The notes under the pieces are model-generated. The model saw only the letters and a program-made list of their open reading frames with translations. It ran no database searches and had not been told where the DNA came from. From a virus, in the IMG/VR virus record IMGVR_UViG_3300042526_000402, positions 62,001 to 126,000 of that record: a stretch of DNA of 64,000 nt. One strand, given 5' to 3'. This document shows positions 5,701 through 24,000 of this stretch, piece after piece. A program made the position numbers and the translations under genes. Numbering within the stretch: the first letter of the stretch is position 1; every line of letters starts with the position of its first letter.

Positions 5701-8700
5701 CCAAATTCATCACGGTATGTGAAAATTAAATCTGAAATAGTTTTGTAAGCTCCTGAGATATCAAAAGTCAAATTCATACTTTGTTTCATTCTAGCTTGGA
5801 TTTCAGAAAGCCTATTTAATAAAGCAGCTCTATTTTCATAAAATTCATCTGAATACTTGATTTTAACATTTTGTTTTTCCCATTTCCTTAACTCAATTTC
5901 AAACGCTGGATCAGTTCTTTTAATATTTTTAGCTTCTAACTCAGTAACAAATTCATTATAAGCTGTATCTAATGAATTAGTAATAGGAACCCACTCATAA
6001 AAATCACTAGTTGCATTTCTATGTTGGATTAATACTTCTGCAATAGATTTATCATAATTATCATTTGCCGGGTCATCAACTTTTTCTGTACCATCTTCAT
6101 AGTATAGAGAATACAATTGCTGATAACTTCTGAAAGCTGCTTCTATAGTACTATAGTTTTCAAACCTTTCTAATTCTTTTTCAAATTGGTTTTGTAAGTT
6201 TATGAAATTATCAAAAGCATTCTTTTTAGATAAGTAAGCAAGTTTTCCTATGTCAGAGGTATTAAATATATCATCTTTCTCATAAAATTCAGGAACATAT
6301 TCCTGCCACATATAAGCTTTGTTAAATTTTCTAACTCTGTCTAAAGCCTCAGCAATTTTGTTTTTATCACCACCATCTTTAGCTTCTGCATATTCATATT
6401 CTAACTTATCTTTCTCATATCTCCAACCATTACCAAATTCATTTAAGAATGTCCATACTTCTTTAGGAACAGGTTGTCCGGTTTTCTTGTCAATATAAAA
6501 TATGGTGTCTTTACCAGCTACCATATCTCTTATCTGCAAAGAATTTAATTTGCTAAAATTAACTTGAGGTAAGATTTTTGAAAGCTTGTTTCTAAATATT
6601 TGAGACTTATCCCAAACTTCATTCTCAACTTCAGTCTTTTCATTTTGAATATACATAGCAAGTGAACCTACTATAGGGTCATTACTTGAAGAATAAGATT
6701 CTAACCATCTATTGAACCAGCTTACATCTTTTGTTTTACCAGACAATACATCATTAATTCTTTTTTCATTAATAACATAGGTATTGTATTGCTCAATAAA
6801 TCTATTTAATACTTCTTTGGGAACTCCTTTTTCATAAAGTCTTATCAAGTCTTCATCTTGTATAGTTCCTTTTACAACTTTATTGTAAAGATTATCTACC
6901 TCAGCTTCTTGTTCATCTGCAGGTAAATTTTTTAAAGCGGTTTTTAAATTAGTATTTAATTGCTCTTCTACAAACTTGGTCATGTAACCAGTTATCTCAA
7001 CAAAAAACTGAACATTATTCTTTTTATAAATATCAGAAACCTTTTTAACAACCATTTTAGAGTTGTTCAAGATCTCATTTACTGTTTGATAAAATGGGTT
7101 ATCACTATCTATAGTACTATCTTCAAGAATATTATTAATCTCATCTACCAAATTCATCCAAGAATTAGCAGTGGACTTATACAACTGAAGCAAAGCAACA
7201 ATGTTTCTATTATTGATTAATGAATCATTTTGCTCAATTATTCTAAGTTCATTTAAAGTATTTATACTAGAGCTTTTAATACGGTCCATACTATTTACAA
7301 GTGCTACAGCTTTTATTCTAGCCATCTCTTGTATTTTCTCTTCCGCATTAAGACTATTTTCAATTACTGATTCAGCATTAATATTATTTGTAGGTATTAC
7401 ATCTTGAAAACCTCTCAAACTTTTATCTACTGCTGGTAATAATTCTGTAGTACCTTCTTTTAATAAAGCTCTTTGTAACATAGCTTTATTTACCGCATCT
7501 TTACCTGTATTAAATTCTCTTGCTTGAGTTACAGCAGCTTTATTATTTAAGTAAGTTTGATTTATGATAGCCTGAGCTGCTTCAGGAGAAGCATGTTTTA
7601 ATAGTTCATCTGCTCTTTCAACTACATCTTTATAAAACATTACTATGTCAGCCTCAGTAATATTTGTTGGAATATCACCTAAGTCTAATTCTTCATCATT
7701 CAATAATCTATCTGCTAAATCACTGATAGTATCTGTACTTTTGAGATCTTTCACTTTTACACCAGTTCCAAATACCCTGCGCATAATATCTTTTAATGCA
7801 GCTAACAACTTGTTTATAAAAGATTCAAAGCCTTGTGATTCAATTTGATTATTTATTTTATTCATTGCATTCATCTGTAATGCAAAAACAATACATTCTT
7901 CTTTAAATAAAGGAGTATTTGTACCAAGTTCTGGATATAATTTTGTAACATGATTAATGATAGCCTGACCCTCTGTTGATCTTTCTAACTCATTAAACAA
8001 ATTCTCAAACAAATCAATATTATTTCTTCTTATAGCTTGAACAAATGGATGTGCAAATTCATGTAAAGCAGTATTAGCATTAAGATTATCTCCTACAAAA
8101 TAAACTGTACCTGCAAAATAAAATGCAGGTTCACCCATATATGGTTTTGAACTACGTGATAAAATTTCTTGAGCTTCTTTAGGTGTTACAGATTGATATT
8201 CAACATTCATTTTAGCAGCAAGTTTTTTAGCTAAAACTTCACCTAGTTCTCTGCTGATACTATCATTGATACTATCTAAGCTTATATTTAAAGTAGATTT
8301 TTTTGGTTTATAAACATTATCATTTGGTACATATCTGTTATAATCCCAAATATCTTTTAATCTACCAAAATCTAGTTTAGCTTTAAAAGTATTTCTCCAA
8401 TCAGCAATTTCAAGTTCTACACCAGAATTTAAAATTATCTTTTTACCAGTTGCCTTTTCTTTTATATCCTTTGGATAACTAAAAATATCAATCAGCTTGG
8501 CCTCTACATCACCTGTATGTGAATCTGTTAAAGGTACATAACTGCTAACAATATTTCCATTTATGTCAACTACATCATAACCAACAATTTTATTGGTATT
8601 TCCAACTTCTACACCATCTTTTAATACTTTTTTTGAATTATCAAAAGTTAAATTTTCTATTGTATATCCTTCAGGTGCAATTAACCAAGTATCAGTTTGG

Positions 8701-10622
8701 TAATCTTCATTATATATATTTCTAATATATTTATTATTAGGATATAAGCTAGTAAAAATTTTAATTGCTTCAGCTCTAGTCACAGGACTTACCCAATCTA
8801 TATCATGTATTTGATTTTCAGTTGGTCTATATACAGTACCTTGTTCAGATAGTGTTATACTTCCTGTAAGTACAAAATATGGAGCCATTTTTTCAATAAT
8901 AGACTTTCCAAACTCATCTGATTTCATAGCTTCTTCTAATGATATTTTAGAAACTGGTTTTCCAACTGAGCCCGGTTTAAATACTGATTGTGTTATTAAT
9001 GACTGATTTTGTAATAGTATATTGTCTGCAATAATTCCTACATTTTTATTAATTCTTGAAATTTTAATCTCATTTAATAAGTTAAAGAATTGTCTTATTA
9101 AATTTTTGATAGCTTCAATAAGTGAACTTGGTAGTTCAGTGTTTGTTTTGTTATGTAATTCTTTAGATATCAAATCTCCAACAGCATCTAAAAGTTCATC
9201 TTTTGATAAATTTTTAAACATACCCATTTTACGCATGTTACCTGTTATTTCAGTTACAAGAGGATTATGTTGCATCATATATGCAATTAATTTACCAGCT
9301 TGTTGGGGATAATCAACCTGATTATTTTTATCAGTATAAAGAATTTTATTTAAGATATCTACATGTGCTAAACTATCAATACCTAATTTGTCTTGAATAT
9401 CAGATAAGACCTCAGTTTTTATACCAAACTTAGAAAGATATGTTGCTAAAGTTTTATTTAGTTCATTGTTTAAATCCTCATATATTTTAGGATTATTTAA
9501 TAAGTCAGTCTTATCTATATTTATTTTATTTATAGAAGAATTTTTAATGATTTCACTAACTATATTATCTACATCTTTATCTGTTACAGTACCAGATTTA
9601 ATTTTTTTAAGAAGCCTGTAAGCATTGTGATCATAAATACCAATTTGATTTAGTATAGGAAATACTTTATCATAATTTCTTCCTTCATATGCACTCTTTA
9701 ATTCAAATATTAAGCTCCAATAATTGTAAAATGTATCATACTTTTTAATGTCTTCATATGTTACACTCTCAGGTTTTTTCTTAAATATTTTCTCAACTAA
9801 ATTACTACTACTGAAGTAAAGATTTTTTATCATATCTTCTCCTCTGAAGTTATATGGTTTGTCTACATTAAGTTTATAAAGACCTTTTTTCTCAAGCATT
9901 TTACCAATATCTTCAGGTACAGATGCAACAAAATCAATATTAGAAATTAATGTACCTAACTCAACAAATAACTCTTTTATATTAGGAGAAGACATCAGTC
10001 TTCCTTTAAAGACATTATTTTTAGCATCCCATTCACCAAAGAAATATGTACTTCTTGATTTAAAAACTTGTAAATTTTCAAACACCTGATTAAATTTTTC
10101 TCTAGTAATAGCTTTACCCTCTCTTTTTCTATCCATAAGATTAACATAGTTATTATAGATATTATCTATTTCTTCTTCAGGTAGATTTAGGTAAGTACCA
10201 TTAGATACAATTTTAAAAGAGTTAACATCTGGTAATTCAGATTTTTCTTCTCTCATAAATTGAGGACCCTCTTCATCAGTATTAGGTACAATTGACTGTT
10301 TAGCTATTTCATTTAAAGCATCATACTTACTTTTTAGTACTTGTAATTGTTCAAACAGAGGTACATTAGGCTCTGCTCTTTCAACTTTAAATGTGGTATC
10401 TCTATAGTATGTTGAATTTCTTTCATCAAGAATTTTCTTACTTGTTGTATCAAACAGCATTTGACCATTTGTAACAAGACCATATCTATCAATTGCTAAT
10501 TGTGTTAGATACTTGTTTGCTTTTTCAAACAATGAGTCATTGATGATTTTTCTTGTATCATCAATGACTTTTACTTTTCTCAGAGTATTAATTGCATTTA
10601 CTGTAACTTCACAAACCATCAT
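2736..10622 (-). CDS. giant putative virion protein with NTase-like motif, zincin motif and LysM domain
   Basis: From ATG 10622 this is 2,628 aa. That start forms a TAATG overlap with the upstream stop, as at other junctions here; an ATG nine bases upstream is also possible. Visible in order: a GS (587-588) followed by HDID (606-609), resembling the GS...DxD core of nucleotidyltransferases; HEFAH (854-858), a zincin motif after a region with a possible third ligand (EE) near 910; long helical, coiled-coil-prone stretches (about 1000-1700); a LysM domain (about 2302-2347, YKKGETFEEIAKKYNVT) of the peptidoglycan-binding type; and two hydrophobic segments near 2465-2480 and 2510-2525. Together these suggest an ejected protein that meets the cell wall and is perhaps processed. 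It is the last gene of the minus-strand block. The domain calls are motif-based. Confidence 0.75.
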   Translation of the reverse strand: MMVCEVTVNAINTLRKVKVIDDTRKIINDSLFEKANKYLTQLAIDRYGLVTNGQMLFDTTSKKILDERNSTYYRDTTFKVERAEPNVPLFEQLQVLKSKYDALNEIAKQSIVPNTDEEGPQFMREEKSELPDVNSFKIVSNGTYLNLPEEEIDNIYNNYVNLMDRKREGKAITREKFNQVFENLQVFKSRSTYFFGEWDAKNNVFKGRLMSSPNIKELFVELGTLISNIDFVASVPEDIGKMLEKKGLYKLNVDKPYNFRGEDMIKNLYFSSSNLVEKIFKKKPESVTYEDIKKYDTFYNYWSLIFELKSAYEGRNYDKVFPILNQIGIYDHNAYRLLKKIKSGTVTDKDVDNIVSEIIKNSSINKINIDKTDLLNNPKIYEDLNNELNKTLATYLSKFGIKTEVLSDIQDKLGIDSLAHVDILNKILYTDKNNQVDYPQQAGKLIAYMMQHNPLVTEITGNMRKMGMFKNLSKDELLDAVGDLISKELHNKTNTELPSSLIEAIKNLIRQFFNLLNEIKISRINKNVGIIADNILLQNQSLITQSVFKPGSVGKPVSKISLEEAMKSDEFGKSIIEKMAPYFVLTGSITLSEQGTVYRPTENQIHDIDWVSPVTRAEAIKIFTSLYPNNKYIRNIYNEDYQTDTWLIAPEGYTIENLTFDNSKKVLKDGVEVGNTNKIVGYDVVDINGNIVSSYVPLTDSHTGDVEAKLIDIFSYPKDIKEKATGKKIILNSGVELEIADWRNTFKAKLDFGRLKDIWDYNRYVPNDNVYKPKKSTLNISLDSINDSISRELGEVLAKKLAAKMNVEYQSVTPKEAQEILSRSSKPYMGEPAFYFAGTVYFVGDNLNANTALHEFAHPFVQAIRRNNIDLFENLFNELERSTEGQAIINHVTKLYPELGTNTPLFKEECIVFALQMNAMNKINNQIESQGFESFINKLLAALKDIMRRVFGTGVKVKDLKSTDTISDLADRLLNDEELDLGDIPTNITEADIVMFYKDVVERADELLKHASPEAAQAIINQTYLNNKAAVTQAREFNTGKDAVNKAMLQRALLKEGTTELLPAVDKSLRGFQDVIPTNNINAESVIENSLNAEEKIQEMARIKAVALVNSMDRIKSSSINTLNELRIIEQNDSLINNRNIVALLQLYKSTANSWMNLVDEINNILEDSTIDSDNPFYQTVNEILNNSKMVVKKVSDIYKKNNVQFFVEITGYMTKFVEEQLNTNLKTALKNLPADEQEAEVDNLYNKVVKGTIQDEDLIRLYEKGVPKEVLNRFIEQYNTYVINEKRINDVLSGKTKDVSWFNRWLESYSSSNDPIVGSLAMYIQNEKTEVENEVWDKSQIFRNKLSKILPQVNFSKLNSLQIRDMVAGKDTIFYIDKKTGQPVPKEVWTFLNEFGNGWRYEKDKLEYEYAEAKDGGDKNKIAEALDRVRKFNKAYMWQEYVPEFYEKDDIFNTSDIGKLAYLSKKNAFDNFINLQNQFEKELERFENYSTIEAAFRSYQQLYSLYYEDGTEKVDDPANDNYDKSIAEVLIQHRNATSDFYEWVPITNSLDTAYNEFVTELEAKNIKRTDPAFEIELRKWEKQNVKIKYSDEFYENRAALLNRLSEIQARMKQSMNLTFDISGAYKTISDLIFTYRDEFGQPDTTQLGEDRIRKIKELEQDIINFREKFDYQTGLPKEEADTLNFLLQKSKTESLDSSEAKTLNNLIQKQKDNGIDVGLVEEMTEIFSSLSDLSSKVPTEYYLEAINTYLSKYNVTEVTDITVDNFVNSEEFEELLEKDDELRKWFVLNHVTVKKYEKGKQVEKLQRTSANSVLRPSDGKYFITTKIFDNETQQEVTLLGVPNARHSRREVKNKYRTIPRGANREDYIGKYINNKGEFLPRSFEPGTKYSAEDDRFIDKRYQALKANPNSPEFELLNLMKDHHLEMQQNAGNYGKLYLDVPRYTTKKGDFYQVFQKGQYGDKFNNVNANVKEWLKQKFGKSTEDYLNDLNYDSDNNLVNTDLNGDEISYIPVTGIFNIDADIADADVFNSLFRYGLSLQTQKQLHKSLPLVQSVLSTLEDPKNQPKNLDKKSKQLQNAKTKVREYANLRTSTYNRLEQVRSLIEREYYGRKVSDMEEANPRLTKWMGNLTKWSSGASLRLNIPSDLKNQFSGYVQTIIESTGGRFVTSRDLALSAAWATKAMFDWSSNGIYTTGPGNLSTQLVQIFDPNFKTTDQYGNTIYRSMFKDMMNFEWTFMHRKFGEMEVAMRLFGAFLYGQKVEQTLPNGSKATIRYVDAWEQDENGIARLKAGIHPGWSNISVYHTYKKGETFEEIAKKYNVTVDELKAKNRIKSEIQVADGQEIIISKSENYKLFKNRLQGTSRALFGVYDDFGQPEGNKLLLYRMFFFMRQWFTPMFVNRFGMDTSKENFGGARYDWALGKTTKGFYINALQVIYRGIKSKGVEFQFMTDDEKGDLKRATAEGMITVITSLLASMLFGYDDDDKDRWKKIKARSGAINSDTFNTYGFLTNHALLLLLGVQAETSAFIPLPQIGGVNLGADDYAKMLTSTSTVFGNTILTYMEIIGDILNFATFNEAGRYKRDAGPYWFQKKGELKIWKRAFNLMGFSGGAGDPEALLKNLEKGASRIR

Positions 10623-13600
10623 TAAGAACATTTAAAAGGATCAGACTCAAAACCATACTTTTGTAAGATCTCATCATCTGACACACCTTGTTTATTATAT
10701 ACTATATCACTTACCTGTTTATTCAAAAGAGAACCTGGATTCAAATATCTTAATTTTTCATATAACTCTCTACTTAAATATACAAATAAATCTTGAGGCA
10801 TGAGGTCTGGATTTCCAAATCCTGCTGTAGGAAGTGCTATATCAAACCCTTTTTCTTTAGCATTTTCAGCTGCACTCAAAATTTTACTCCAGTATTTTTT
10901 AATTTCTTCTTTATCATCTGCTGATAAGTTAGCAAAATTATCATCTTTACCATCAGATATCAAAACTGGAACAGTCATATCTGGAGCATGTAATTGTAAA
11001 ATAGATTGGTCAGTAAAGTTTTTGTTTCTACCATCTTGAAGTTCAGAATTAGTATAAGAATGTAAGAAAATTACTTTAGAGTTTTTATTTGTAAGATTTT
11101 TATAATAAATACTATCTTTATCTACTGAATCATACAAGAATACATTTGGTTCATTAGTCTCAATTAAATCAGATTTAACATCTACTAATCCTAATGGAGT
11201 AGCAAGTGATTCAACACTAGTAGATAGTTGAGTATCATAATCAGTAATATCTTCAGATTTAATATCCTCAAGCATTTGTTTATATGATTCAGCATGTCTA
11301 TCTATAGTTTCATCTGATACATTTGCTCTGTTTTCTCCTCTTACTAGTTGTGCTTTAATTCTTTGTTTGGCTAACTTAGCATTTAATGGCATAAGTTTAT
11401 ATTGAATATTAGCATTAGGTATTGCTTTTTTAATAGCTTCAACAAAAGGTCTTCTTTTATCTTTAGTAAGATTGGTAGTATCAAACACTACTTGTTTACC
11501 TTGTTTAATAGCTTGTATAGCTCTATTAGCTGCTTCAATATAAATCTCTTTGTCTTTAGATTTATTATTTATATCTCCTGTAAATTCAACTCTCATTGCA
11601 TCAGGTTCTATGACTACTAAATTTTCTTGAGGTAAAGACTTTATAAATGTAGATTTACCACTTCCGCTTGTTCCTATGGGAAGTATTACATCAGCTTGCT
11701 GTTGAGTTTTTGTCTTACTAACTTTAATTTTATTAATGTCAAAATTTGTTAAGTAACTTTTGAACTCTTTTTTAGTTGGGTTAGTCACCTTGTTATTAGC
11801 AAATTCAAATTTTTGTAAGTAATCACTAAGTAAATACTCTCTTCTTTCTGGATCATTTTCTAATACATTTAAAACTTCATTACCGGCATCTTGTATAATA
11901 TCAATTACTTTAGTATAATCCACAAATGGAACTAGGTTATATGATGATTTGTTTATACCTGATTGCAAGTATGCAAAGATCGGAAGCATAGAAAACACCT
12001 CTGTTATTTTCTTTATGTCAGCATCATTAAGCTTTAAAGCTTTGGCATAATTTTTTAAAACTACTGGATTAGCTAAGTCTTTTAAGTTACTAATATACAT
12101 GTTAGCTTTAGTACTGTTAATATCTCTATCAGCAATACCTAAGTTAAATATAGTTTGGTCAAAATTTGATTCTGATTTTAATACTGCTAAAACATCAAAC
12201 TTTCTAACTAAATCTGGATACTCATTTATGATTTTAGATACTCTATTACCATATGCTGTATCTGCATTATTAAATAAGTGATAGAAATTAAAAGTATTAT
12301 CTAATGCTTTTTCTGCTAAAAACTTTTCATACTCAGCTTTAGATTGAGAGTCTTCTTTAGGGAAAACACTTCTTAAATATTCTCTTTCTATAACAAACTT
12401 TTTGTACTGTTCAAAGTTTTGATCTTTTTCAAGTGCTGTAAAAGTCATAGGATCTACTTGGTGTAGACCTAATACAACATATGGGTTATCATCCTCAACA
12501 TCATCTGTAGACCATGCGTTGTTTTCAAATTGTAATTTTAAAACTGAATCATTTACAAATAAAGTTTTTGAACCATTGTTATTTGTTTTAACATATGCTC
12601 CAAAATATTTAGACTCAAAGTTTTTAACAGCCAGTTCTTCTTTTAAATCATAAGACATGTATGTGTCTCCTAATTTGCTTTTAAGTAAAGCATTTTGGAA
12701 TATATAACTTACAAAATCATTTCTAAATGCATTAATGAACTGCTTCTCATTATCTTCACCAAAAGTTTTTTTCAACACATCATCTAATTTACGTGTCTTC
12801 TTTAAGTCAATTATATAATTACTAAATGCTTTGTTATATCTCAATTTAAACAAAGGTTTACTTAATGCTAGTGCTAGAGGTCCATTAAAGAAGGAACTGA
12901 TAACAGAATCTTTCATTAAACTATTAATCAAAGGAGAAAGAACCTCATCTTCTAATAAATCTTCTATTGTGCTCTCAGATAACTCAATATTTGATAACGT
13001 AGTATTAGTATTAGTATCAGGATTTGCATTCATCTTAATCTTAGTTATACCCTTGATTTGATCTTCAATCTTCAAGTAATGTAAAAACAGTAACAAAGAT
13101 TTGTTCTCTTTCTTTATATCTGGGTTAACAGAAGATTTTTCAATTAAATCCAACAAACTTTTTTCTGAAAAGAATTTATCTTCTCTACCTTTAAAAGCAG
13201 CTTCTAAAAGCTTATCTGCAGTATCTAATATAACAGCACCTTTTGCATTAGAAGGAAGTATGTTTGTAGGAAAATTTTTAGCTATGACATTTTTCATAGC
13301 ACTGAATTTAACCAATCCTCTAGAATCAACAGCTTTACCTAACATAGGTGCAAAAGTGGAACCAATTAAACGTTGTTGTTCTACATAATCTCTAACTAAT
13401 GGTTGTGACACAAAGTAAATAGCTTCTTTAACAGGTACTCCTGCTTTGATTAAAAACAATAATACAGGTGCTACTTCATAGTTACCTTGAATAAAGAAAA
13501 TCCAGGCATCTTTTTCAACATCCACCCAACCATTGATTGCTTGTGAGAATACATCTGATATTTTATTTATATTATCAACATCATAGATATCTGAAAGAGA

Positions 13601-16600
13601 AATTCTTTTTTCTCCATCTACATCCATAGTTCTATGTCTTAGGGCAAGAGTAACATTTCTTGTTGTCTCTTTATCACCAGACTTACTCAAATAAGTGTTA
13701 GGAAGATTTGCTCCTATAGAATTAAACAAGATATTAAATGTATTTTCAATAGCTCCTAAACCTAATGTAGCTTTACCAATCATGTTAGACTCATGCTTAT
13801 ATAAGTTATATCTTGTTTCAAGAATTCTTGTAGGGCTAAGTTGTTTATCCTTACCTTCTGTCATCTTAGTACCAAAAGGATTATAATCCATAACATATTT
13901 AGCTAATTCATCAGCTGTTTCTTTAAGTAAGAAAGTACCATTAGGTGTAATTAGAGATACAAAGTTTTCAGGTAATTCTAATATTGCTTTGACATCTTTA
14001 ATTAACTCATTTTCTAAACCTGCTTTTTGTTGTTTAAATAACTCATTTAAAGATTCACCTGCAGCATTTTTTTCTTTTACAGTTTTTTTAACAGCTTCAA
14101 TATCAGCTAATGTTGGTTTAATTAATTCACCATTTAAACCAATATTAGTCATGAATATTGTAAGTTTATCAATATCAAAGTCACCCCCTGACTTAGCAAC
14201 TATCTCAGCTGGAGGTATGATAATATTACCTGCTTGAGCTGGTAAGAATTGATAAACTTCCATAAACTCCATAGAGTTTAGACCCTGAACCGGAATCCTA
14301 ACCCCTACAAGAGTTATTGCTTTTCTGTTAGCACCATCATTTGCATCTAACCATTCATCATCTTTGATTGCTCGGTTTAATCTATCTATAGTCTCAACAG
14401 TTTCCCCTTTATATTCAAGATTCAACAAGTTAGCATAGTCCCCCTGTAATGCAATCATAACCTTCATTGCTGCAGTTTTACCATCCGCCTTCTTATGATA
14501 TGTAGGAAGTACATTGCTACCAACCCATTTTTTCTTTTCTTCATCTGTAGCATTTCTGAAATTTTCTGTTTTAGTAACATTGTTTTCATACATTGCAGAA
14601 GACACTTGAACTAATGGTTCACCTTTAATTTTTTGCTTAATGATTCTTTTATTAATCATAGACAAAAGCACTTTCTCAATTTTAAGTACTTCAGGGTGAT
14701 ACGATAAGTCTATTGCAATCTCACCAGAATCTAATGCATCAATAAAGTCTATCAATTCATTTCCATAAGCATCTTCTCTTTCTAGGTTAGCTCTAATAAG
14801 TTCTAACAATTTAGAAATACTGTCTTTATCTCTTGGTGCATATTCTCCTTCAGATACTTCATCATAACCAATTTCTTCAAGTAATTCTAACTTAACTAAC
14901 TCAGTATAATCACTTACATCTTTTAAGTATTTCTCAACAATTGGTTTAGCACTTGGAGAAATAATATCACCATTTTTATATAAGTTGTCTAAAATCAACT
15001 TTCTCATCTGAGTAGAAAATATAGACTTGCCTTTAAATTCAGCATTTACTTCAGTTTGATTCTTTAAGAATTCTGTAAAGATTGTATTAACAGTAAACTT
15101 ACTGTCTTTAAGGAAGTTACCATCTTTATCAAAGATCTCATCACCATTTCCTACATGACCAATTTTAGAACCAGATTGATAAACAACATAGTCTACTTTA
15201 TCTTGCATCATTTTTAAATGTAAATCATAAAGTGGTGTACCTTTTATTGCTACACCCGGTATGATTGGATTAAGGGAAAACTTATGAAAAGATGTTACTG
15301 GTAATAATTCTGATTGCATATTTCCAGCATACTGTAATTTATAAGGAGGAAAAAATTTAACTATATCTACTACAGAAACTTCTTCACCTTTAGCAATTTT
15401 TGTATAAAGTTCTTCTTGCTCTGGTAACCAGTTTCCTTCAAGATTTTTTAATTTTCTGTAACCTTCAAAAGTAACATGACCTTGACCATCACCAATCTCC
15501 ATACCTCTATAACCTTTAAGTGTTATTTCAGTAAGTTCTTTTGCTTTGGCTTTGTCTTTTAATCTTGAGTAGTAATCATCATATACAGCATCATAGTACT
15601 CATTATAATAAATTGACTCATCTACAACTCTTTCTTTTAAAATAGCAGTTTTCAAAGTACCATCAAAATTTCTTGATGTTACACCATCATTAGCAAATGA
15701 TTCTGCATAGATGTTTGGTAATGAATTTACATAAGTTAGTATTTTCATATCTGCAGAGAAGCTTCTACCACCCCCGCCAAAACCAGCATTTCTTTTATGG
15801 AATTCTTCTTTAGCGTGATTATACTGTGCAAAGTCTCCATATATTAAAACAGCAGTTTCAAATTTATGCATCCAAGAGTTGTAAGTATAGGCCTTCATCA
15901 AGGTCTCATTTACTTGCTCATTGGAAAGTTTTTCAAAACCAGGTACTCTTTCTTTTAATCCAGAGTCAATATATTTAGCTTTTTCTAATTCAGCTAGATT
16001 CTCTTCTGTAAGGGCTTGAAAGTATGCTGTAACATCTTTCTCTATTCTTGCTCTTAAATTAGGATTAGAGTTAATTACATCCATCATGTCAAAAGAAGTA
16101 TCTTTAGTGTCTACTGCATTATCTATGATAGCATATAATTCTGTTTGTGTTTCTTCTGTAAGAACGTCATCAAATGCAGTAAATGCATTCCCAGCCATTG
16201 TCTCAGTTTTGTTCTTATCTTTTCTTTGTACCTTTCTGTTATAACCCTTGTAGTTTTTGAGAACATCTTTGTTTAAACCAAACTTAAATATTCTATTAGA
16301 CTCAGCCATTATGTAGCCAGCAATGATATCAAAAGCTCTTGATTCACCAGGACCATATGGAGCAAAGTTTTTAATGTCTACATATAACTTACTGTCATCT
16401 TTAATAACACCTGTATCAATTTTACCAGTTACAGTCAAACCTTGAGCCATTTGTTTAGATGCATGTCTCATAAATTCCTCAACTCCATTCATCAACATAG
16501 TGTGAATCTCTTGTAAGAATTTACTTGTTTTGTCCATAGAAGCTGTAGAAATACCTTCTTTCTTTTCCTTACCACCTTTTCTATCTTCTATTAACTGTGT

Positions 16601-19600
16601 ACCAGCAACATTATTGATTAGTAAAGAGTTGTTTAATCTGCTTCCGTCAGGTTTTTTCTTATCTCTCAAATTAAAAATAGAAGCTAATAATTGAGAATGT
16701 AAAGAATAAGGATTGATATCTTCAGATAACCAACGCATGTGTTGGAACTTGTTACTTGGATCAGCTTGAACTCTTGTAAGTTCTTGCCATGATTTAGCGT
16801 GATTAATAGAAGTAATTACTCTTGTTGTTGTACTATCTAAGAAATGCTCCCATACTCTATTTCCTTCAGGACTTAAAGCACTAAAATTTGAGTACTTATC
16901 AGAATTAGCAGCTTGTATTTTTGCTAATTCTTTTACTCTACTGTTTGAAACATTAGTTTTAGTATTAGTAATAGGGTCCTTAGTAACACCCTCCATTATA
17001 TATTTGATAGGATTAGATGCAATAAATCTTGCTTCAACATTTGATGATGCTACAGCAGCTCTAATAGTTTTAAATATTTGGTCTACACCATATTTAATAC
17101 CAAATTTTGGATCATCTACTATGTCTTTGATAGCTTTATTTGTATAATCTAATCTTATACCTACAGCATCTAAGAAGTCTTTTGATAATTCTGATTTAAA
17201 GTTTCCTTGCTTATCTGTAAAAGTGCTAAAAACTTTTTTGATATCTAATACATACTTACTTTCTATTTCATCAAAAATTAAAAATTTGTTTGTAGATGGG
17301 ATATCCATAACAAAACCGAAATTCCAATCTCTAATCACACTTGTTACAGGAAAGTCTGCTTTAGCCATTCTTGCATCATAAACAGCATCATTGTTTTTAG
17401 CAGGAGTTTTGTTTATGTTTAATTGCAAGTAAGAAATTCTTGGTTTCTTTAAATCTTGCCAAAAGTTCACATCTATACTAAACTCAGTATTGTCTTTGTA
17501 TGTGGTAGAAGATGGGTTAGGTAGTAAACTTAAAAGTTGTTTTATCTCAGGTTCTGATTTAATTGCATTTTGTAACTTGGTATACATCTCAACTTTATCA
17601 AAAGATCCCGCAAGAATTTTAGCAAGCTTATTCCAAATAATATTAAAATCTACTAATATAGGTTCTCCAAACTCATTTAACTCATACTCAATATTAAACT
17701 TAGTCACACCATCTACAACCTCAGAAGTAAATTTACTTCTGTCAACTTTATAGATACTACTTAAAATAGTTTTAGTAGCTTCACTAGCTTCATCTTTTGA
17801 TGATATAGTATTTCCACTATCTAATTTAAATGTTTGAGATTGCTGCATGTTTGTAGGATCATTATCAACTTCTACATAAGTATTTGCTAGAATTTTAAAT
17901 CTTGAGTTTTCCAAGTGATATGTAACAACTCCAGACTTTTGACTTCCTTCTACAGATTCCCTTACATCTCCAAAATTGGTAATCATTTTTTCAATGAACA
18001 CCAAATTACTTAAAAGATTATCTGGAACATCTTCACCATTTATTGCTAATTCTGCAGTCTGTCTTTTAAGATTTTCAAACATTGTTTTCAATCTCTTTTG
18101 AACAGTCTCATACATAGCAACACGGTTACTATTGTTGTAAAGAATTTTAATAGCACCTCCTGAATTATCCTTAGCTTTATTATAAGCCATGAATATTTTT
18201 GGTAGGATACTATCAATTAAACTTGCAGCCTTCAAAGACTCTGATTCTGTAAATTCAGTGTATTGACTTTTAAATTCTTTAAGGGGTCTGATTACTTTAG
18301 CTCTGTTAAGTTTAGTAAACATAAGGTTCTCTGTAGAAGGTTGCATATGTTGCAATAGCTCTGGTCTATTAGATGCCTCATATAACTTATCAAACAGTTC
18401 TTTAACTGCAGGAATATCTCTTGGTCTTAGTACAGCTTGTGTTCTAGACACTTTACCAAAGATGTTATTTAAGAACTGGTATATTCTTCTGAATATTTCA
18501 CCCAAAAATCCTTTAGGTTCTTCTTTTTTACCTTTGCTTTTAGCATAATCTCTAAAATCTTCAGCAATATCTTCTTCAATTTCAAAGAAAGAGTTGTTGG
18601 CCCACTTTGGTTGGCCCTTTAATTCACTGTATAATTTAATTTTTTCTGCTTTTGTTAAGAATAACTGCGAGAATCCGTGCCATGCTTCATGATATATATC
18701 TATTGGAGTACCTCCATCACCTTCATAAAGTGTAATACCAGTACCCATAAATGTTGCAAAAGCATCTGAGTTTACAACTTTTGATATTCTTTCTAAACCA
18801 ATAAGACCTAAATGTTTATACTTTTTATTTTTTGCATGCTGACTATCTTTATTCAATGGAGAATTTTTCCACCAATCTTCAGCTGCTGCTTTGTCAGCTT
18901 CAGTAGTAAATAACTTATCTAAAAAAGTTTCCAGTCTTTTATTTCTTTCAAACATATCTGCATCAAAATCATCATCAAGATCCTCTGGCATGTCTGATAA
19001 ATCTACTTTATCTATTGTATCATCAGTAATAAAATTTACTTCTTCTTCAAATGGTATTTCTTCTGAAACAGCTTCTGTTGCAATTCTACTCTCTTTATAT
19101 TTTTCTTCATTAGTTTTAGGAGGAGCTGAGTTTACTTTTACATTTTCTGCTTCAATTGCATATTCAGAATCTCCCATGTATTCAGCCGGAATCTCATATG
19201 TTAAATATGGATTATTACCATAAGCAAATTTTGCATATTCAACACTAAAATTAGCTTTAGCATAATTTTTAATAAAAGGAATATACATTACAGTATTAAC
19301 AGTAATCTTATCACCATTCACCTCATAATCTGGAAAGTAACCAAGAGCCTTTACTTTCTCATTAAACTGTACTGAAGCAGGATAACTGTTACCTTTTTTT
19401 GAAGTTTTATTAACTTTAAGATGACCTTTAATTATAGCTTTAGCTTTATCTGTGTATAATTCATCTCCTTTTATTACAGTTTCTTTACCTTCAAAATCTT
19501 TAATACTAACTACTAGAGCACCATCTTTAATTTTAACAGTAATATTTTCTCTGTTGTATTTACCGTAAAAACCATTACCTGATTTTTCTAAACTATTATC

Positions 19601-21022
19601 AATAAATATTTCAAAATAAGCTTGTCTTTGCTCATTATCTAGTTCTTTACCTGTTGGAAGTTTAGCCTTTGTTGTTAAAACAGTTGCAACTTTTTCTGCA
19701 AGATTTTCATCAAAATCACCCCTTTGCATATCAATGATTTGCGGAATTTTTCCTACAGGAGTATCAACATGTACAGTAATAACAGGTCTACCTTTTTTAG
19801 TATTATTTTCATCTTTAATGATGTCATAAGTAGCTAAATCTTCTTCAGTAATACCAAGTTGTGATATTGGTTTAGCATATACTTCTGGAGCAATACCTAA
19901 ACTACCACCAGTTATATTTAATTTAACAGGATTCTCAGATGACTCAACTTCTTTTCTTAGTTTATATAAACCATTCATCAAAGCAGTTTGCTCTTCAAAT
20001 ATTTCTTGAGCTCTTATATCAACCCAATCATTATCTATTTCACCACCTTGTGCAGCAAGTATATCAGCTTCTCTATTTGCTATCTTTAATGCATCAACAA
20101 GAGTATTTTTGTATCTGTATAATTTTCTGTTTTCACCTTTACCAAGCGTTCTGCTGTATAATAAAGTAAGTACACCATCAATCTTTTCAACTTTTCTTAA
20201 AAATGTATATACAACTGTTCCATTTTCAGCATCAGTTATGTTACCTTCTTTATCAAAGAAAAGGTAATTACCATCTGTATCAGTGATAACAGCATATATA
20301 CCTACAGATTCACTATCTTCAGAACTTAGGTGCTCTGCTAATTTATATTCATTAGGAAAAGCTGATGACTTAGTTGCTGATAATATAATTGGAGTATCAC
20401 CATATAAAACTTCAGTCTCATTAATAGAGCTGAAATTTATAGCAGCAATAATATTTTTTTGAACAATATTAAATACTGTTTTTTTAGGGTCATCAGGATT
20501 TCTATCATCTCCTTTTTTAAAACCTGCAGGATTTTTAGATGCTGATGTTTGTAAACTTGTTACATTAGGAAATTCAATTTTAGCAGAATTTCTACTTTCT
20601 AAATCTGATTGACTTAACTCACTATCATCAGAAATTACAACATCCTCTTTGGTTTTGTTTATTTCTTTAAGCTTGTTTTCAACATCATCAAATGTTTCTT
20701 GTTCCTCTACAACATATTCACTAACTTTTTCAAGATCTTGAAATTGTCTACGCAAAGATCTTATAATATTAGTATCAAAGTCCATTTCATCTAAAAGGTC
20801 ATTGATTTTACTATTGTTGCTAACTATATTAAAAATATCAGGAACTGCTTGTGCATATTGCAAAGCTTTTCCTGTATCTTCTGTAGCTTCAAGAACTCCA
20901 TTATAAATCTTTTTTATTAACCCTTTTAAATCAAAACTTTCTGAAGGGTTAGCTCCAGAAAGTTTTTTATAGATTAATTTATATACATCACCAATTTGGT
21001 CTTCATTAAGTGAACAAGCCAT
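10622..21022 (-). CDS. giant crAss-like DFDID RNA polymerase with zincin and C-terminal PNK-like kinase domains
   Basis: This 3,466-residue protein carries GGDFDIDKL with DFDID at 2281-2285. It is preceded by a segment (VGVRIPVQGLNSM...PAQAG) like the beta-prime double-psi barrel of multisubunit polymerases. A region at about 1895-1960 (FHKFSLNPIIPG...SGSKIGHVG) is a plausible beta-like barrel with candidate lysines. In the crAss-like phage phi14:2, gp66 with the same signature is a virion-delivered RNA polymerase that transcribes early genes. Additional parts are HEAWH at 778-782 with downstream acidic ligands near 812-820, and a P-loop GTSGSGKS at 3117-3124 with VVFDTTN near 3175 and a basic lid. 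The last part is a C-terminal domain (about 3310-3466, ALPTAGFGN) of uncertain, perhaps macro-like, type. Its ATG overlaps the upstream stop (TAATG). Confidence 0.88.
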   Translation of the reverse strand: MACSLNEDQIGDVYKLIYKKLSGANPSESFDLKGLIKKIYNGVLEATEDTGKALQYAQAVPDIFNIVSNNSKINDLLDEMDFDTNIIRSLRRQFQDLEKVSEYVVEEQETFDDVENKLKEINKTKEDVVISDDSELSQSDLESRNSAKIEFPNVTSLQTSASKNPAGFKKGDDRNPDDPKKTVFNIVQKNIIAAINFSSINETEVLYGDTPIILSATKSSAFPNEYKLAEHLSSEDSESVGIYAVITDTDGNYLFFDKEGNITDAENGTVVYTFLRKVEKIDGVLTLLYSRTLGKGENRKLYRYKNTLVDALKIANREADILAAQGGEIDNDWVDIRAQEIFEEQTALMNGLYKLRKEVESSENPVKLNITGGSLGIAPEVYAKPISQLGITEEDLATYDIIKDENNTKKGRPVITVHVDTPVGKIPQIIDMQRGDFDENLAEKVATVLTTKAKLPTGKELDNEQRQAYFEIFIDNSLEKSGNGFYGKYNRENITVKIKDGALVVSIKDFEGKETVIKGDELYTDKAKAIIKGHLKVNKTSKKGNSYPASVQFNEKVKALGYFPDYEVNGDKITVNTVMYIPFIKNYAKANFSVEYAKFAYGNNPYLTYEIPAEYMGDSEYAIEAENVKVNSAPPKTNEEKYKESRIATEAVSEEIPFEEEVNFITDDTIDKVDLSDMPEDLDDDFDADMFERNKRLETFLDKLFTTEADKAAAEDWWKNSPLNKDSQHAKNKKYKHLGLIGLERISKVVNSDAFATFMGTGITLYEGDGGTPIDIYHEAWHGFSQLFLTKAEKIKLYSELKGQPKWANNSFFEIEEDIAEDFRDYAKSKGKKEEPKGFLGEIFRRIYQFLNNIFGKVSRTQAVLRPRDIPAVKELFDKLYEASNRPELLQHMQPSTENLMFTKLNRAKVIRPLKEFKSQYTEFTESESLKAASLIDSILPKIFMAYNKAKDNSGGAIKILYNNSNRVAMYETVQKRLKTMFENLKRQTAELAINGEDVPDNLLSNLVFIEKMITNFGDVRESVEGSQKSGVVTYHLENSRFKILANTYVEVDNDPTNMQQSQTFKLDSGNTISSKDEASEATKTILSSIYKVDRSKFTSEVVDGVTKFNIEYELNEFGEPILVDFNIIWNKLAKILAGSFDKVEMYTKLQNAIKSEPEIKQLLSLLPNPSSTTYKDNTEFSIDVNFWQDLKKPRISYLQLNINKTPAKNNDAVYDARMAKADFPVTSVIRDWNFGFVMDIPSTNKFLIFDEIESKYVLDIKKVFSTFTDKQGNFKSELSKDFLDAVGIRLDYTNKAIKDIVDDPKFGIKYGVDQIFKTIRAAVASSNVEARFIASNPIKYIMEGVTKDPITNTKTNVSNSRVKELAKIQAANSDKYSNFSALSPEGNRVWEHFLDSTTTRVITSINHAKSWQELTRVQADPSNKFQHMRWLSEDINPYSLHSQLLASIFNLRDKKKPDGSRLNNSLLINNVAGTQLIEDRKGGKEKKEGISTASMDKTSKFLQEIHTMLMNGVEEFMRHASKQMAQGLTVTGKIDTGVIKDDSKLYVDIKNFAPYGPGESRAFDIIAGYIMAESNRIFKFGLNKDVLKNYKGYNRKVQRKDKNKTETMAGNAFTAFDDVLTEETQTELYAIIDNAVDTKDTSFDMMDVINSNPNLRARIEKDVTAYFQALTEENLAELEKAKYIDSGLKERVPGFEKLSNEQVNETLMKAYTYNSWMHKFETAVLIYGDFAQYNHAKEEFHKRNAGFGGGGRSFSADMKILTYVNSLPNIYAESFANDGVTSRNFDGTLKTAILKERVVDESIYYNEYYDAVYDDYYSRLKDKAKAKELTEITLKGYRGMEIGDGQGHVTFEGYRKLKNLEGNWLPEQEELYTKIAKGEEVSVVDIVKFFPPYKLQYAGNMQSELLPVTSFHKFSLNPIIPGVAIKGTPLYDLHLKMMQDKVDYVVYQSGSKIGHVGNGDEIFDKDGNFLKDSKFTVNTIFTEFLKNQTEVNAEFKGKSIFSTQMRKLILDNLYKNGDIISPSAKPIVEKYLKDVSDYTELVKLELLEEIGYDEVSEGEYAPRDKDSISKLLELIRANLEREDAYGNELIDFIDALDSGEIAIDLSYHPEVLKIEKVLLSMINKRIIKQKIKGEPLVQVSSAMYENNVTKTENFRNATDEEKKKWVGSNVLPTYHKKADGKTAAMKVMIALQGDYANLLNLEYKGETVETIDRLNRAIKDDEWLDANDGANRKAITLVGVRIPVQGLNSMEFMEVYQFLPAQAGNIIIPPAEIVAKSGGDFDIDKLTIFMTNIGLNGELIKPTLADIEAVKKTVKEKNAAGESLNELFKQQKAGLENELIKDVKAILELPENFVSLITPNGTFLLKETADELAKYVMDYNPFGTKMTEGKDKQLSPTRILETRYNLYKHESNMIGKATLGLGAIENTFNILFNSIGANLPNTYLSKSGDKETTRNVTLALRHRTMDVDGEKRISLSDIYDVDNINKISDVFSQAINGWVDVEKDAWIFFIQGNYEVAPVLLFLIKAGVPVKEAIYFVSQPLVRDYVEQQRLIGSTFAPMLGKAVDSRGLVKFSAMKNVIAKNFPTNILPSNAKGAVILDTADKLLEAAFKGREDKFFSEKSLLDLIEKSSVNPDIKKENKSLLLFLHYLKIEDQIKGITKIKMNANPDTNTNTTLSNIELSESTIEDLLEDEVLSPLINSLMKDSVISSFFNGPLALALSKPLFKLRYNKAFSNYIIDLKKTRKLDDVLKKTFGEDNEKQFINAFRNDFVSYIFQNALLKSKLGDTYMSYDLKEELAVKNFESKYFGAYVKTNNNGSKTLFVNDSVLKLQFENNAWSTDDVEDDNPYVVLGLHQVDPMTFTALEKDQNFEQYKKFVIEREYLRSVFPKEDSQSKAEYEKFLAEKALDNTFNFYHLFNNADTAYGNRVSKIINEYPDLVRKFDVLAVLKSESNFDQTIFNLGIADRDINSTKANMYISNLKDLANPVVLKNYAKALKLNDADIKKITEVFSMLPIFAYLQSGINKSSYNLVPFVDYTKVIDIIQDAGNEVLNVLENDPERREYLLSDYLQKFEFANNKVTNPTKKEFKSYLTNFDINKIKVSKTKTQQQADVILPIGTSGSGKSTFIKSLPQENLVVIEPDAMRVEFTGDINNKSKDKEIYIEAANRAIQAIKQGKQVVFDTTNLTKDKRRPFVEAIKKAIPNANIQYKLMPLNAKLAKQRIKAQLVRGENRANVSDETIDRHAESYKQMLEDIKSEDITDYDTQLSTSVESLATPLGLVDVKSDLIETNEPNVFLYDSVDKDSIYYKNLTNKNSKVIFLHSYTNSELQDGRNKNFTDQSILQLHAPDMTVPVLISDGKDDNFANLSADDKEEIKKYWSKILSAAENAKEKGFDIALPTAGFGNPDLMPQDLFVYLSRELYEKLRYLNPGSLLNKQVSDIVYNKQGVSDDEILQKYGFESDPFKCS

Positions 21023-24000
21023 TATTTACAGTATTTAGAATTATCTTTTAATTTATTAAATATATCATCATCATTTTCATCTTCAGCCTCACTTTCTAAT
21101 TTAATGATTTTATCCTTAGCATTAGAGAATTTTTCAAGATTATCATGAGATTCTTTTGATAATTCTTTATCTTGTTCTGTTACTGGGGCTTTACCAACTT
21201 TTTCTTTTTCCATTGCTTCTTTAGAATACATAGTGAAGTTATTTTTAATTTCTTGTTCAGTAAACACTTTCTTAGTGTCTGTACCATAAAGTTTAACAAC
21301 AACTTGATTAGTGTCTTTATTTATCATGAACACTTCTACTACAGAATTTTCTGCTCCTTCAAAGATAGGTTTTTTTGAGATAAGTAATGTGCCTTTTTTA
21401 ATTGTATCTGCGGATACATTTGGCAATTCTTGTTCTCTTTTTTTATAAGCTTCTTGTATTGTAGTATAAGAAATATCTCCTCTATTATTTATAGCATCTT
21501 CAAAAGCTTTATCAAGTTCATCTTTATCTTTAGCTTTATTAATAGCTTCAAAAAATGATGGGTTTTCTCCTAATTCTTTTTCTTTTTTAACTGCTGTAAG
21601 AGAAGGTTTAATACTGCGAGCACTGTTAACTATTTCTTTGAGTTCATCTGTTGAGACTGTTTCTCCTTTTCCAGATAATCCAGGAACTGTTTCTGCTTGT
21701 CTGTTGGAAGACTTTTCATTCTTAGGTACACCAGACCTTTTCTGTACTTTGCCGGCATTTGGTCCGAAGACTTTGTTTGCTGCTGCTTGTTGTTTACTGA
21801 ACCTTGCTTTCTTGGTTTTTCCATCTTTTATAATTTTGATTAAATTTAAATCATTTTTTAATTGTAACAAACTATTTATTTGGTTAGATATATCATCTAC
21901 TAAGTCACCTCTATTAACAACTGACACACCTAAACTATATAATTCATCAACTTTTTGGTCAATCCATTTATAAATATAATCTAATTCACTAATAGCAATA
22001 CCTTGAACACCTACTTCAAATAATATATCTAATGTTTCAGGATACTCTTCAGTGTCTAATATTTGTGTGATAGCTTTACTAACTGCTGCTGATAAACTTA
22101 ATCTATCCATCTCTTTAAGATGTTTCTTTTCATCTTGAGGCTTGAATGATTTAGTTGCTTTCTGAAAGCTGTTAGGTAAAGAATTTAAAGCAAATATATA
22201 ATCATTTGCATTACCACCTTTTTGAAACACTACATCATTAGTATTTAATAAGTCTTGTTTTTCTTTTTCAAGTCTAGTAACACGGTCTTTAAGTTGAGAA
22301 ATTTCATTTAACAAATAGAATTGAGAAACCTTGCTTCTTTTGATATCTTTAGGCTTAACTAATTCAGATAATCTTTTGATTTCACCAAGAGCAAATACAA
22401 TTTCTTCATCTATTTCAGAAATTATTTTATCATTTCTTTTATAGCTTAACCCAACAATTGACCCTGACTTATCTCTTACTACATCATAATGTACACCATT
22501 GATAGTTGCTTTAGTTTCATCAGCATTATCAAACTTAGCTTTTATAACTTTGCCGTTAACCTTATTTGTTTGGAAAGGGAAAGTAATACCAGTAATCACA
22601 GATATTCCTAAATCCATTGTATTTAATGAACCGTTTGTAGCAGGTTTAAAATTATGATATACTACTTCAATTTCCTTTTCAGGTTTATCTAATAAAGCCT
22701 TTGTATCAGCAATAGCTTTTTCAAGTTGTTCTCTTATATCAGATTCAGTTTCTGTATCTAAATCACTTTGAAATTGCCCTATCATTTGTTTAAGCAATGC
22801 TTCATCTTTAACAGTATTTTTCTCTACAGCAAATGAACCATCTTCTAACATGATTAACTTACCAGCAGAACCATTAAACATTACTGTTTTGTTTACCAAA
22901 TCATTTAGAGATATGTTTACTAAGTCCTCTGTTTCTTCTAGTACTTCTGGGGTAGATGTTAATTCATCAGTTCCCGTATCACCAGAATCATCATCAGCTT
23001 CTTCCTCAGTAAATTCTGGTTTAATCATCATTACACCATATTCTGAAACAGCATCTAAGAATGGTAATTCATAGTAACCTGGAGCAAGAACTTTTTTACT
23101 AGTGCTACCATCTTTATTTACTACATCATTACCTTCAGCATCTTTAACAGTTACTTGAGCTTTATCAATATCATTTACATAACCCTCTGTATTTACATTT
23201 ATACCTAATGGTAATATTTGTAACTTGCTAACTTTTATACCGGTCATGTTATAAAACAATGTAGCATAAATTGATAACTGAGCTTGGTGTTTTATTCTGT
23301 TATAACTGTTTTCAGACTCATATCCATCCCAATTTTTTGAAGTTTTGATATCTATAATCATTACTTCTCCTTTAGCATTAACAGCTAATAAATCTATCTC
23401 ACCTGTTATACCTAAAGTTTTATCAAACACTAGTAAGTTTTCTGGAAACAATACAAACTCCCCGTCAATCATTTTACTTCTTATAGAAGAAACAATACCG
23501 CCTGGACCAAATAGTCTATTAAAAGCTTTCTCAGACATGAATTCTGAAACCTTATATTCTACTCCATTTATATCTATGCTACCTGTGTAATTAACTTCAG
23601 CAAAACCTTCACCATTACCAGTATCAATAGTTAAGAATTTTCTGATTAATTCATCAACTTTTGTTCCCGCCTCTGAAGATTCAATAAATGCATATTTATC
23701 TATTGTTTCTCTAACACCTTCAACTGTAGGATTTTTTCTTAAATCTGCTTCTATTCTTTCAATTTTAGATTTAGAATTAAAAGCTTTAGATCTTTTAGCA
23801 AGTAGTTTAAACTTATCCATAAAGATATCTACAGCCTTTTGAGGATCAGTTTCATTTTCTAAAATTTCAGCAAAAGTATTTGCATAAAAATCTTTTCTGT
23901 TATATCCAGTCCAAGCTTTACCAGTTATGTCTTCAGTAATTTTAGCTGCAATTTCAGTAACCCTTTTTAATTGTGTACTTGGTTCTGTAGTAGTTTTATC

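Follow-up and report, generated by a model that had tools for sequence, protein, structure and literature searches.

A giant virion-type RNA polymerase gene of a crAss-like phage contains, between its catalytic core and its conserved C-terminal domain, a slot that is empty in some relatives and differently filled in others. The gene lies in the 64,000-nucleotide (nt) stretch of DNA analysed here (the window), which spans positions 62001-126000 of the 135,860-bp IMG/VR record IMGVR_UViG_3300042526_000402. In the window the slot holds a kinase module of the bacterial Pnkp type. We consider it probable that the polymerase is a virion protein with an exchangeable payload slot which is loaded by in-frame recombination at short homologies.

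The polymerase C-terminus contains a variable payload slot

The first-pass annotation of this DNA, made from the sequence alone, had described an RNA polymerase fused to a polynucleotide-kinase-like domain and to a further C-terminal domain. The open reading frame (ORF) of 3466 amino acids (aa) was borne out, and it lies on the minus strand, which had been left unstated. Slot length was measured between two anchors, one where the polymerase core ends and the other the conserved C-terminal domain. The slot was empty in 34 fetched relatives (2-36 residues) and filled at 10 loci including the window (154-587 residues). Besides the kinase, which occupies the slot in the window and in L002, the payloads were a 2-oxoglutarate-Fe(II)/AlkB-like dioxygenase (L048), DUF7831 together with an AlkB-like domain (L067), a cpYpsA SLOG domain with an HExxH-like (peptidase-like) piece (L043), the HExxH-like piece alone (L044), a DUF7831-like domain (L078) and unclassified sequences (L075, L077, L079). 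On either side of the slot, the DNA of L042 (empty) and L077 (filled) was 96% and 99% identical, and the kinase-bearing L002 was 95-97% and 99% identical to L067 with its DUF7831 and AlkB-like payload. L043 and L044 were also within 95-99% DNA identity outside the slot, yet differed inside it. In the nearest polymerase relative, L039, whose core is 78% identical, the slot was empty. These comparisons show that the slot exists as empty, filled and differently filled alleles. The fusion of kinase and polymerase is real, but the kinase is a replaceable payload, the one present in this allele of the slot, and not part of a fixed bifunctional enzyme.

The invariant C-terminal domain caps the slot. 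Since it is common to all close polymerase relatives, it represents the normal C-terminus of the clade and not a second fusion, so this part of the annotation did not stand. Its AlphaFold2 model had a predicted local distance difference test (pLDDT) score of 84, Foldseek found no confident PDB match for it, only weak protein tyrosine phosphatase-like ones, and no catalytic Cys was conserved. The annotation had also proposed comparison with macro profiles; hhalign gave just 64% for a macro or DUF7831 domain, in a single short overlap, an identity that we do not adopt.

The payload of the window belongs to the polynucleotide 5'-kinases

Residues 3110-3262 matched AAA_33 (E=3.2e-15) and the PHROG_505 polynucleotide kinase profile (7.9e-13). 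The top NCBIfam profile was TIGR04075 (bacter_Pnkp), the match covering the kinase part only and scoring far below the TIGR04075 cut-off. When a profile of 13 kinase copies was compared with the PDB, bacterial Pnkp (3e-7), Pnkp1 (8e-5), T4 PNK (0.04) and also mammalian PNKP were found; the nominal first row, a lectin with a 19-residue match, was not counted as a domain match. The seven best Foldseek matches of the AlphaFold model (pLDDT 83) were all bacterial Pnkp kinases (E 2e-7 to 2e-6, TM ~0.7), which places the P-loop in a kinase family, as the annotation had expected. These profile (AAA_33, PHROG_505) and fold matches rule out a chance occurrence of the motifs. DFDID and GTSGSGKS were found exactly where the annotation had placed them, ALPTAGFGN was found in the last domain, and VVFDTTN was present a few residues downstream of the position given there (3178-3184 instead of about 3175).

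The module contains a Walker A motif, DxxR, DTTN and a basic lid region (RIKAQLVRGENRANV) with the lid/acceptor arginine. K14, S15, D32, R35, D72, N75 and R112 (module numbering) were invariant in the 13 copies, and the invariant arginine of the module aligned with the lid arginine of CthPnkp. The P-loop K/S, the D/R of DxxR, the D/N of DTTN and the lid R are the residues that act in catalysis in CthPnkp and T4 Pnk. The median ratio of non-synonymous to synonymous substitution rates (dN/dS) among the copies was 0.16, indicating purifying selection. Profile searches found no phosphatase domain in the polymerase (P0001), as a bifunctional Pnkp would have. Thus, the module is assigned to the polynucleotide 5'-kinase family, with a predicted activity on 5'-OH ends.

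The kinase module is mobile

Relatives of the module were found in 20 IMG/VR contigs, with 71-98% identity across 12 aligned copies and 60% in the weakest match. They occurred in different giant ORFs: in polymerases at the tail, ahead of the core or shortly after DFDID (L019), and also in homologues of a neighbouring giant protein (L010/L011) and in ORFs that could not be classified. The DNA similarity between copies starts and ends at nearly the same borders, and, near-duplicate pairs excepted, the flanks share little or none. The window and L002 differ at only 3 of 447 nt from within the P-loop to the downstream linker, while the 100-residue blocks on either side share 44% and 37% identity. 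The near-identity shows that the module has moved at the DNA level, by recent transfer or conversion. A crossover within the P-loop would suggest that both partners had already carried a copy of the kinase. As the annotation's novelty claim required, the fusion is not general among crAss-like polymerases: no crAss-like record of a 50,697-record phage collection matched this kinase, and when the polymerase core was used to collect 75 contigs with a polymerase, 1 of them had the kinase. No relatives were detected in prokaryotic genomes searched via conserved peptides.

In L016 (~10351-10760) and L019 (~10350-10770), two phages, a module of ~130 residues is inserted at an identical point inside the kinase lid. 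This module within a module has an RTRTTR motif, appears ASCH-like by eye and had no Pfam match. The kinase copies of L017 (9797-10613) and L018 (9944-10383) are split across two reading frames, through either decay or sequencing error.

A short in-frame DNA joint borders the payloads

A 21-nt in-frame joint, ACTCAAYCATCTACTAGTGTT, often marks the borders of payloads, in the polymerases as well as in other giant proteins. It encodes TQ[P/S]STSV and has the written-out consensus ACTCAA(C/T)CATCTACTAGTGTT. Two versions of this joint ranked 1 and 2 in an unbiased list of heptapeptides recurring between unrelated flanks. The codons of the joint were identical in 24 of 26 contexts (P 0.002-0.004 each), compared with many codon versions for HEAWHGF and GSDFDID. 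Homologous diverged modules beside the joint kept 64% of codons at identical residues and the joint kept 54/54 (unbiased set, pattern-fetched loci left out). A scan of the collection gave 80 matches in 62 stretches and 72 distinct contexts, all 80 in the frame of the longest ORF. Conservation was limited to about 26 nt, with synonymous sites frozen. When the scan was opened to most synonymous codons, 38 genuine in-frame sites were obtained, 35 exact and 3 one nt off; the other 9 matches were scattered and attributable to chance. The flanks of the joint pair freely (71 pairings of 53 upstream with 39 downstream clusters). Prokaryotic genomes totalling 257 Gb contained no match to the joint. The 3' joint of the kinase in the window is one nt off the consensus, and ACTCAACAGCAA is probably the remnant of the 5' joint.

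Other observations concern the joint and its surroundings. L107, on the same contig as L193, has six 21-nt joints in the polymerase tail (aa 2045-2978 of a 4099-aa ORF), with a different module between each successive pair. An AlkB-like module (L114-L134) and a 'GFQGYKG' module (L135-L153) are common across many giant ORFs and often adjacent to a joint; the latter had no Pfam match and was not found in annotated phages. A second in-frame, DNA-conserved repeat, TAYGATGCAGAACTAGCTGCT (YDAELAA), encoding (INAK)YDAELAALE, lies between unrelated modules (L216-L302). It was in frame in 80 of 80 analysed matches, but these come partly from tail-fibre repeats and the repeat is therefore not main evidence.

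The polymerase gene and its genomic context

The annotation's call of a crAss-type polymerase with a DFDxD motif held: the core matched PDB 6vr4 (E=4.1e-13), tblastn matches included phi14:2 gp66 and crAss001, and the DxDxD motif is present as DFDID. The protein is multidomain and carries a HEAWH motif; a peptidase profile search of it found nothing above threshold. The gene is one of three giant ORFs in a block. Three giant polymerase-associated proteins, gp47, gp49 and gp50, were identified in crAss001 virions by mass spectrometry (PMC10172136), and by analogy the polymerase of this phage would be packaged in the virion. By eye, the neighbouring 2631-aa protein contains an HExxH-like motif (STALHEFAHPF) and a nucleotidyltransferase-like motif (TGSITL...IHDIDW). 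The exonuclease-like stretch of the other neighbour (PHROG_298) is weakly Cas4-like too.

The record encodes proteins that place it in Crassvirales, namely a crAss-like portal (PHROG_6547, 1e-100), a major head protein (1e-28) and the terminase TerL (3e-56). In tblastn, matches to crAss-like phages covered as much as 98% of the portal. Its top single annotated match, better than any Bacteroidota phage, was the Leptolyngbya (cyanobacterium) phage Lbo-JY46 (32% identity over 98%), and judging from this the phage lineage may have an unusual host.

Table. Features of the polymerase gene and its surroundings (window positions unless a locus is named)
Feature	Position	Strand	Remarks
Giant virion RNA polymerase gene P0001, 3466 aa	10622-21022	minus	ORF; PDB 6vr4 match; tblastn to crAss-like polymerases
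HEAWH zincin-type motif, residues 778-782	18677-18691	minus	recurs as HEAWHGF in relatives
Catalytic DFDID motif, residues 2281-2285	14168-14182	minus	
Variable payload slot (polymerase core to C-terminal domain), residues 3097-3277	11192-11734	minus	
Putative eroded 5' joint ACTCAACAGCAA	11696-11707	minus	complete in L002, with 1 mismatch
Polynucleotide 5'-kinase module, residues 3110-3262	11237-11695	minus	profiles, fold, discrete borders in other contigs
Walker A GTSGSGKS, residues 3117-3124	11651-11674	minus	
VVFDTTN, residues 3178-3184	11471-11491	minus	
3' joint ACTCAACTATCTACTAGTGTTGAA (TQLSTSVE), 1 nt off consensus	11210-11233	minus	none expected by chance
Conserved C-terminal domain of the polymerase clade, residues 3286-3466	10625-11167	minus	
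ALPTAGFGN, residues 3396-3404	10811-10837	minus	
Neighbouring giant (cargo) protein, 2631 aa	2736-10631	minus	LysM at residues 2309-2348
LysM domain	3588-3707	minus	within the 2631-aa protein
Neighbouring giant protein, 2647 aa	21022-28965	minus	exonuclease-like stretch at residues 1846-1926
Exonuclease-like stretch	23188-23430	minus	within the 2647-aa protein
Portal gene	L303:8337-11066 (G000 8337-11066)		

Proposed module exchange and delivery, and alternative explanations

In the reading that we favour, the polymerase would be cargo of the virion and its C-terminal linker the exchangeable slot. Modules, mostly of ~130-240 aa, would be swapped in frame among giant cargo genes and from phage to phage, the crossovers falling at short homologies provided either by conserved module sequence (the P-loop) or by the ~26-nt linker-coding joint, which preserves the reading frame. 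The likely enzymes would be two proteins encoded in the record, a Sak4-like annealase (6.5e-30) and an exonuclease VIII-like protein (6e-24). No tyrosine (PF00589) or serine (PF00239) recombinase, as expected of a shufflon or cassette system with a cognate recombinase, was found in the record. Annealing activity has been described for Sak4 (PMC5928155), and single-strand annealing proteins are reported to help short and divergent sequences recombine (PMC8093625). Because the annealase and exonuclease are present, the recombinases are missing from the record and annealing proteins handle short or divergent homology, we favour annealing at the joint or at module homology, which would be in frame by construction and followed by selection.

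If the polymerase behaves like its crAss001 counterpart, it would be ejected into the host together with the genome and would bring the slot content there before any phage gene is expressed. The HEAWH motif may then release domains, the payload among them. Such a release has been suggested for polyvalent proteins, where nearly every N4-like polymerase carries a fused metallopeptidase (PMC5512222). The kinase most likely phosphorylates 5'-OH nucleic-acid ends, the probable substrate being RNA cut by host ribonuclease-type defences and the outcome healing or turnover; 5'-OH ends are the product of most metal-independent ribotoxins (PMC4411300). The annotation had considered the polymerase's own transcripts or cleaved host tRNA as possible substrates.

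Several observations weigh against this account. The comparison set consists of metagenome assemblies. An assembly artefact was considered, but identical pairings recur in independent metagenomes (for example L163/L179, L176/L180, L191/L199, L156/L202 and L187/L208), and the slot flanks on both sides come from one lineage. Annotated phages gave only chance-level matches to the joint. The 5' joint of the window is eroded and most other kinase copies have no joint nearby; the joint therefore accounts for the polymerase slot but not for every kinase move, and at least one additional route of module movement must exist. Finally, neither a phosphatase nor an RNA ligase, the partner expected in a T4-type tRNA repair pair, was detected alongside the kinase. 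The ligase models PF09511 and PF09414 matched nothing in the 136-kb record, the PF09511 control also matching nowhere, and sealing, if any, would therefore be carried out by host enzymes.

The main rival to a sealing or repair role concerns this last point. T4 Pnk acts with RegB products in mRNA turnover, and the kinase could similarly add 5'-monophosphates to cleaved host mRNA for decay by host RNase E/G-type enzymes. This precedent and the missing phage ligase favour such a role; we nevertheless regard it as rather doubtful, as neither a phage endoribonuclease partner nor the host was identified and the absence of a ligase rests on two models. A toxin-like small-molecule kinase of the zeta-toxin type, acting on UDP-sugars and not on nucleic-acid ends, is less probable still. 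The Zeta_toxin Pfam model scored slightly above its cut-off (24.6 bits), and kinases of the zeta kind have been described in phage MuF fusions and in further polyvalent proteins (PMC5512222). However, the AAA_33 and Pnkp models scored far better, and Pnkp structures came first whereas zeta structures were absent from the sequence matches and from the 50 listed Foldseek matches; the zeta identity was rejected. It is very improbable that kinase and polymerase evolved as a fixed bifunctional unit acting on the polymerase's own transcripts. The in-frame fusion, the purifying selection on the kinase and the union of both activities in one virion-type protein are what such an enzyme would show, but among polymerase genes with the slot only two carry the kinase, L039 lacks it, the empty and differently filled alleles contradict it, and the module also occurs in other giant ORFs, upstream of or distant from the catalytic motif.

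Two alternatives address the joint itself. It could be the dedicated site of a site-specific recombinase, shufflon- or integron-like, and more than a patch of homology. Its sharp ~26-nt bounds, the synonymous sites frozen over 72 contexts and the six-joint array in one ORF agree with this; yet the record has no tyrosine or serine recombinase, some modules move at other borders, and the search for a hairpin or dyad gave nothing better than shuffled sequences, with no clear dyad or stable fold. We therefore hold this explanation to be unlikely. Equally unlikely in our view is a linker kept for its peptide, for example as a processing site cut by the zincin, whose DNA identity reflects recent shared descent with the neighbouring module. 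The HEAWH motif and the idea that polyvalent proteins are processed by fused metallopeptidases (PMC5512222) would fit, but synonymous sites are frozen in the joint while adjacent homologous modules are down to 64% codon identity, and most pairs share neither flank. Beyond annealing-based exchange, we tentatively suggest that the ~26-nt joint could be under selection as the recombination site of a system that exchanges cassettes within genes, in frame and at this one conserved DNA sequence, and so builds effector arrays on injected giant proteins. The kinase might then be one cassette among dozens, and crAss-like phages might build such arrays on virion polymerase tails.

If so loaded, a fixed vehicle with a slot and a frame-keeping joint offers a route by which phages with giant multidomain proteins could gain and swap effectors. 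The shuffling of polyvalent proteins becomes testable, and the joint can be used as a tag in DNA to track down effector modules not yet known. The payloads point to end-processing or repair-type enzymes (kinase, AlkB-like) that would be delivered with the polymerase before phage gene expression.

Comparison with known systems

The literature searched, which covered few subscription journals, contained no description of a kinase on a crAss-like polymerase, of the payload slot or of the DNA joint. Multidomain architecture has been reported for crAss-like transcription proteins (PMC7886860). The polymerase resembles the crAss-like virion RNA polymerases (phi14:2 gp66, 6vr4; crAss001 gp49) in its catalytic core, DxDxD motif and three-giant-gene block, and differs in its 3466-aa length and in the C-terminal linker slot with a kinase, which no crAss-like record of the collection matched. 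The kinase shares fold, Walker A, DxxR, DTTN and the conserved arginine with the kinase domain of bacterial Pnkp (CthPnkp, Pnkp1) and with T4 Pnk; unlike these, it has no phosphatase or ligase domain, resides inside a polymerase, is very uniform and is mobile.

Effector-domain fusions to virion polymerases are already known. In Iyer et al. 2017 (PMC5512222), polyvalent proteins include N4-like virion polymerases fused to a metallopeptidase and an ADP-ribosyltransferase (ART). The likeness extends to giant virion polymerases with effector domains, a zincin-type motif and the idea of cassette shuffling, but here the polymerase is of an unrelated type, polynucleotide kinase, AlkB-like and SLOG payloads occupy a single slot, and the excerpts of that account do not mention a DNA-level joint.

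Short repeats within genes are known to allow in-frame swaps of coding modules in shufflons (Rci/sfx) and polymorphic toxin cassettes. In our case no recombinase was found, the joints are direct, in frame and placed between unrelated domains, and swaps occur between phages instead of by inversion within one genome. The glycine-rich motifs of T-even gp38 and the lambdoid boundary sequences are likewise short conserved crossover points for module exchange, whereas the joint described here is a linker with frozen synonymous sites between unrelated enzymes in proteins that are probably injected as cargo.

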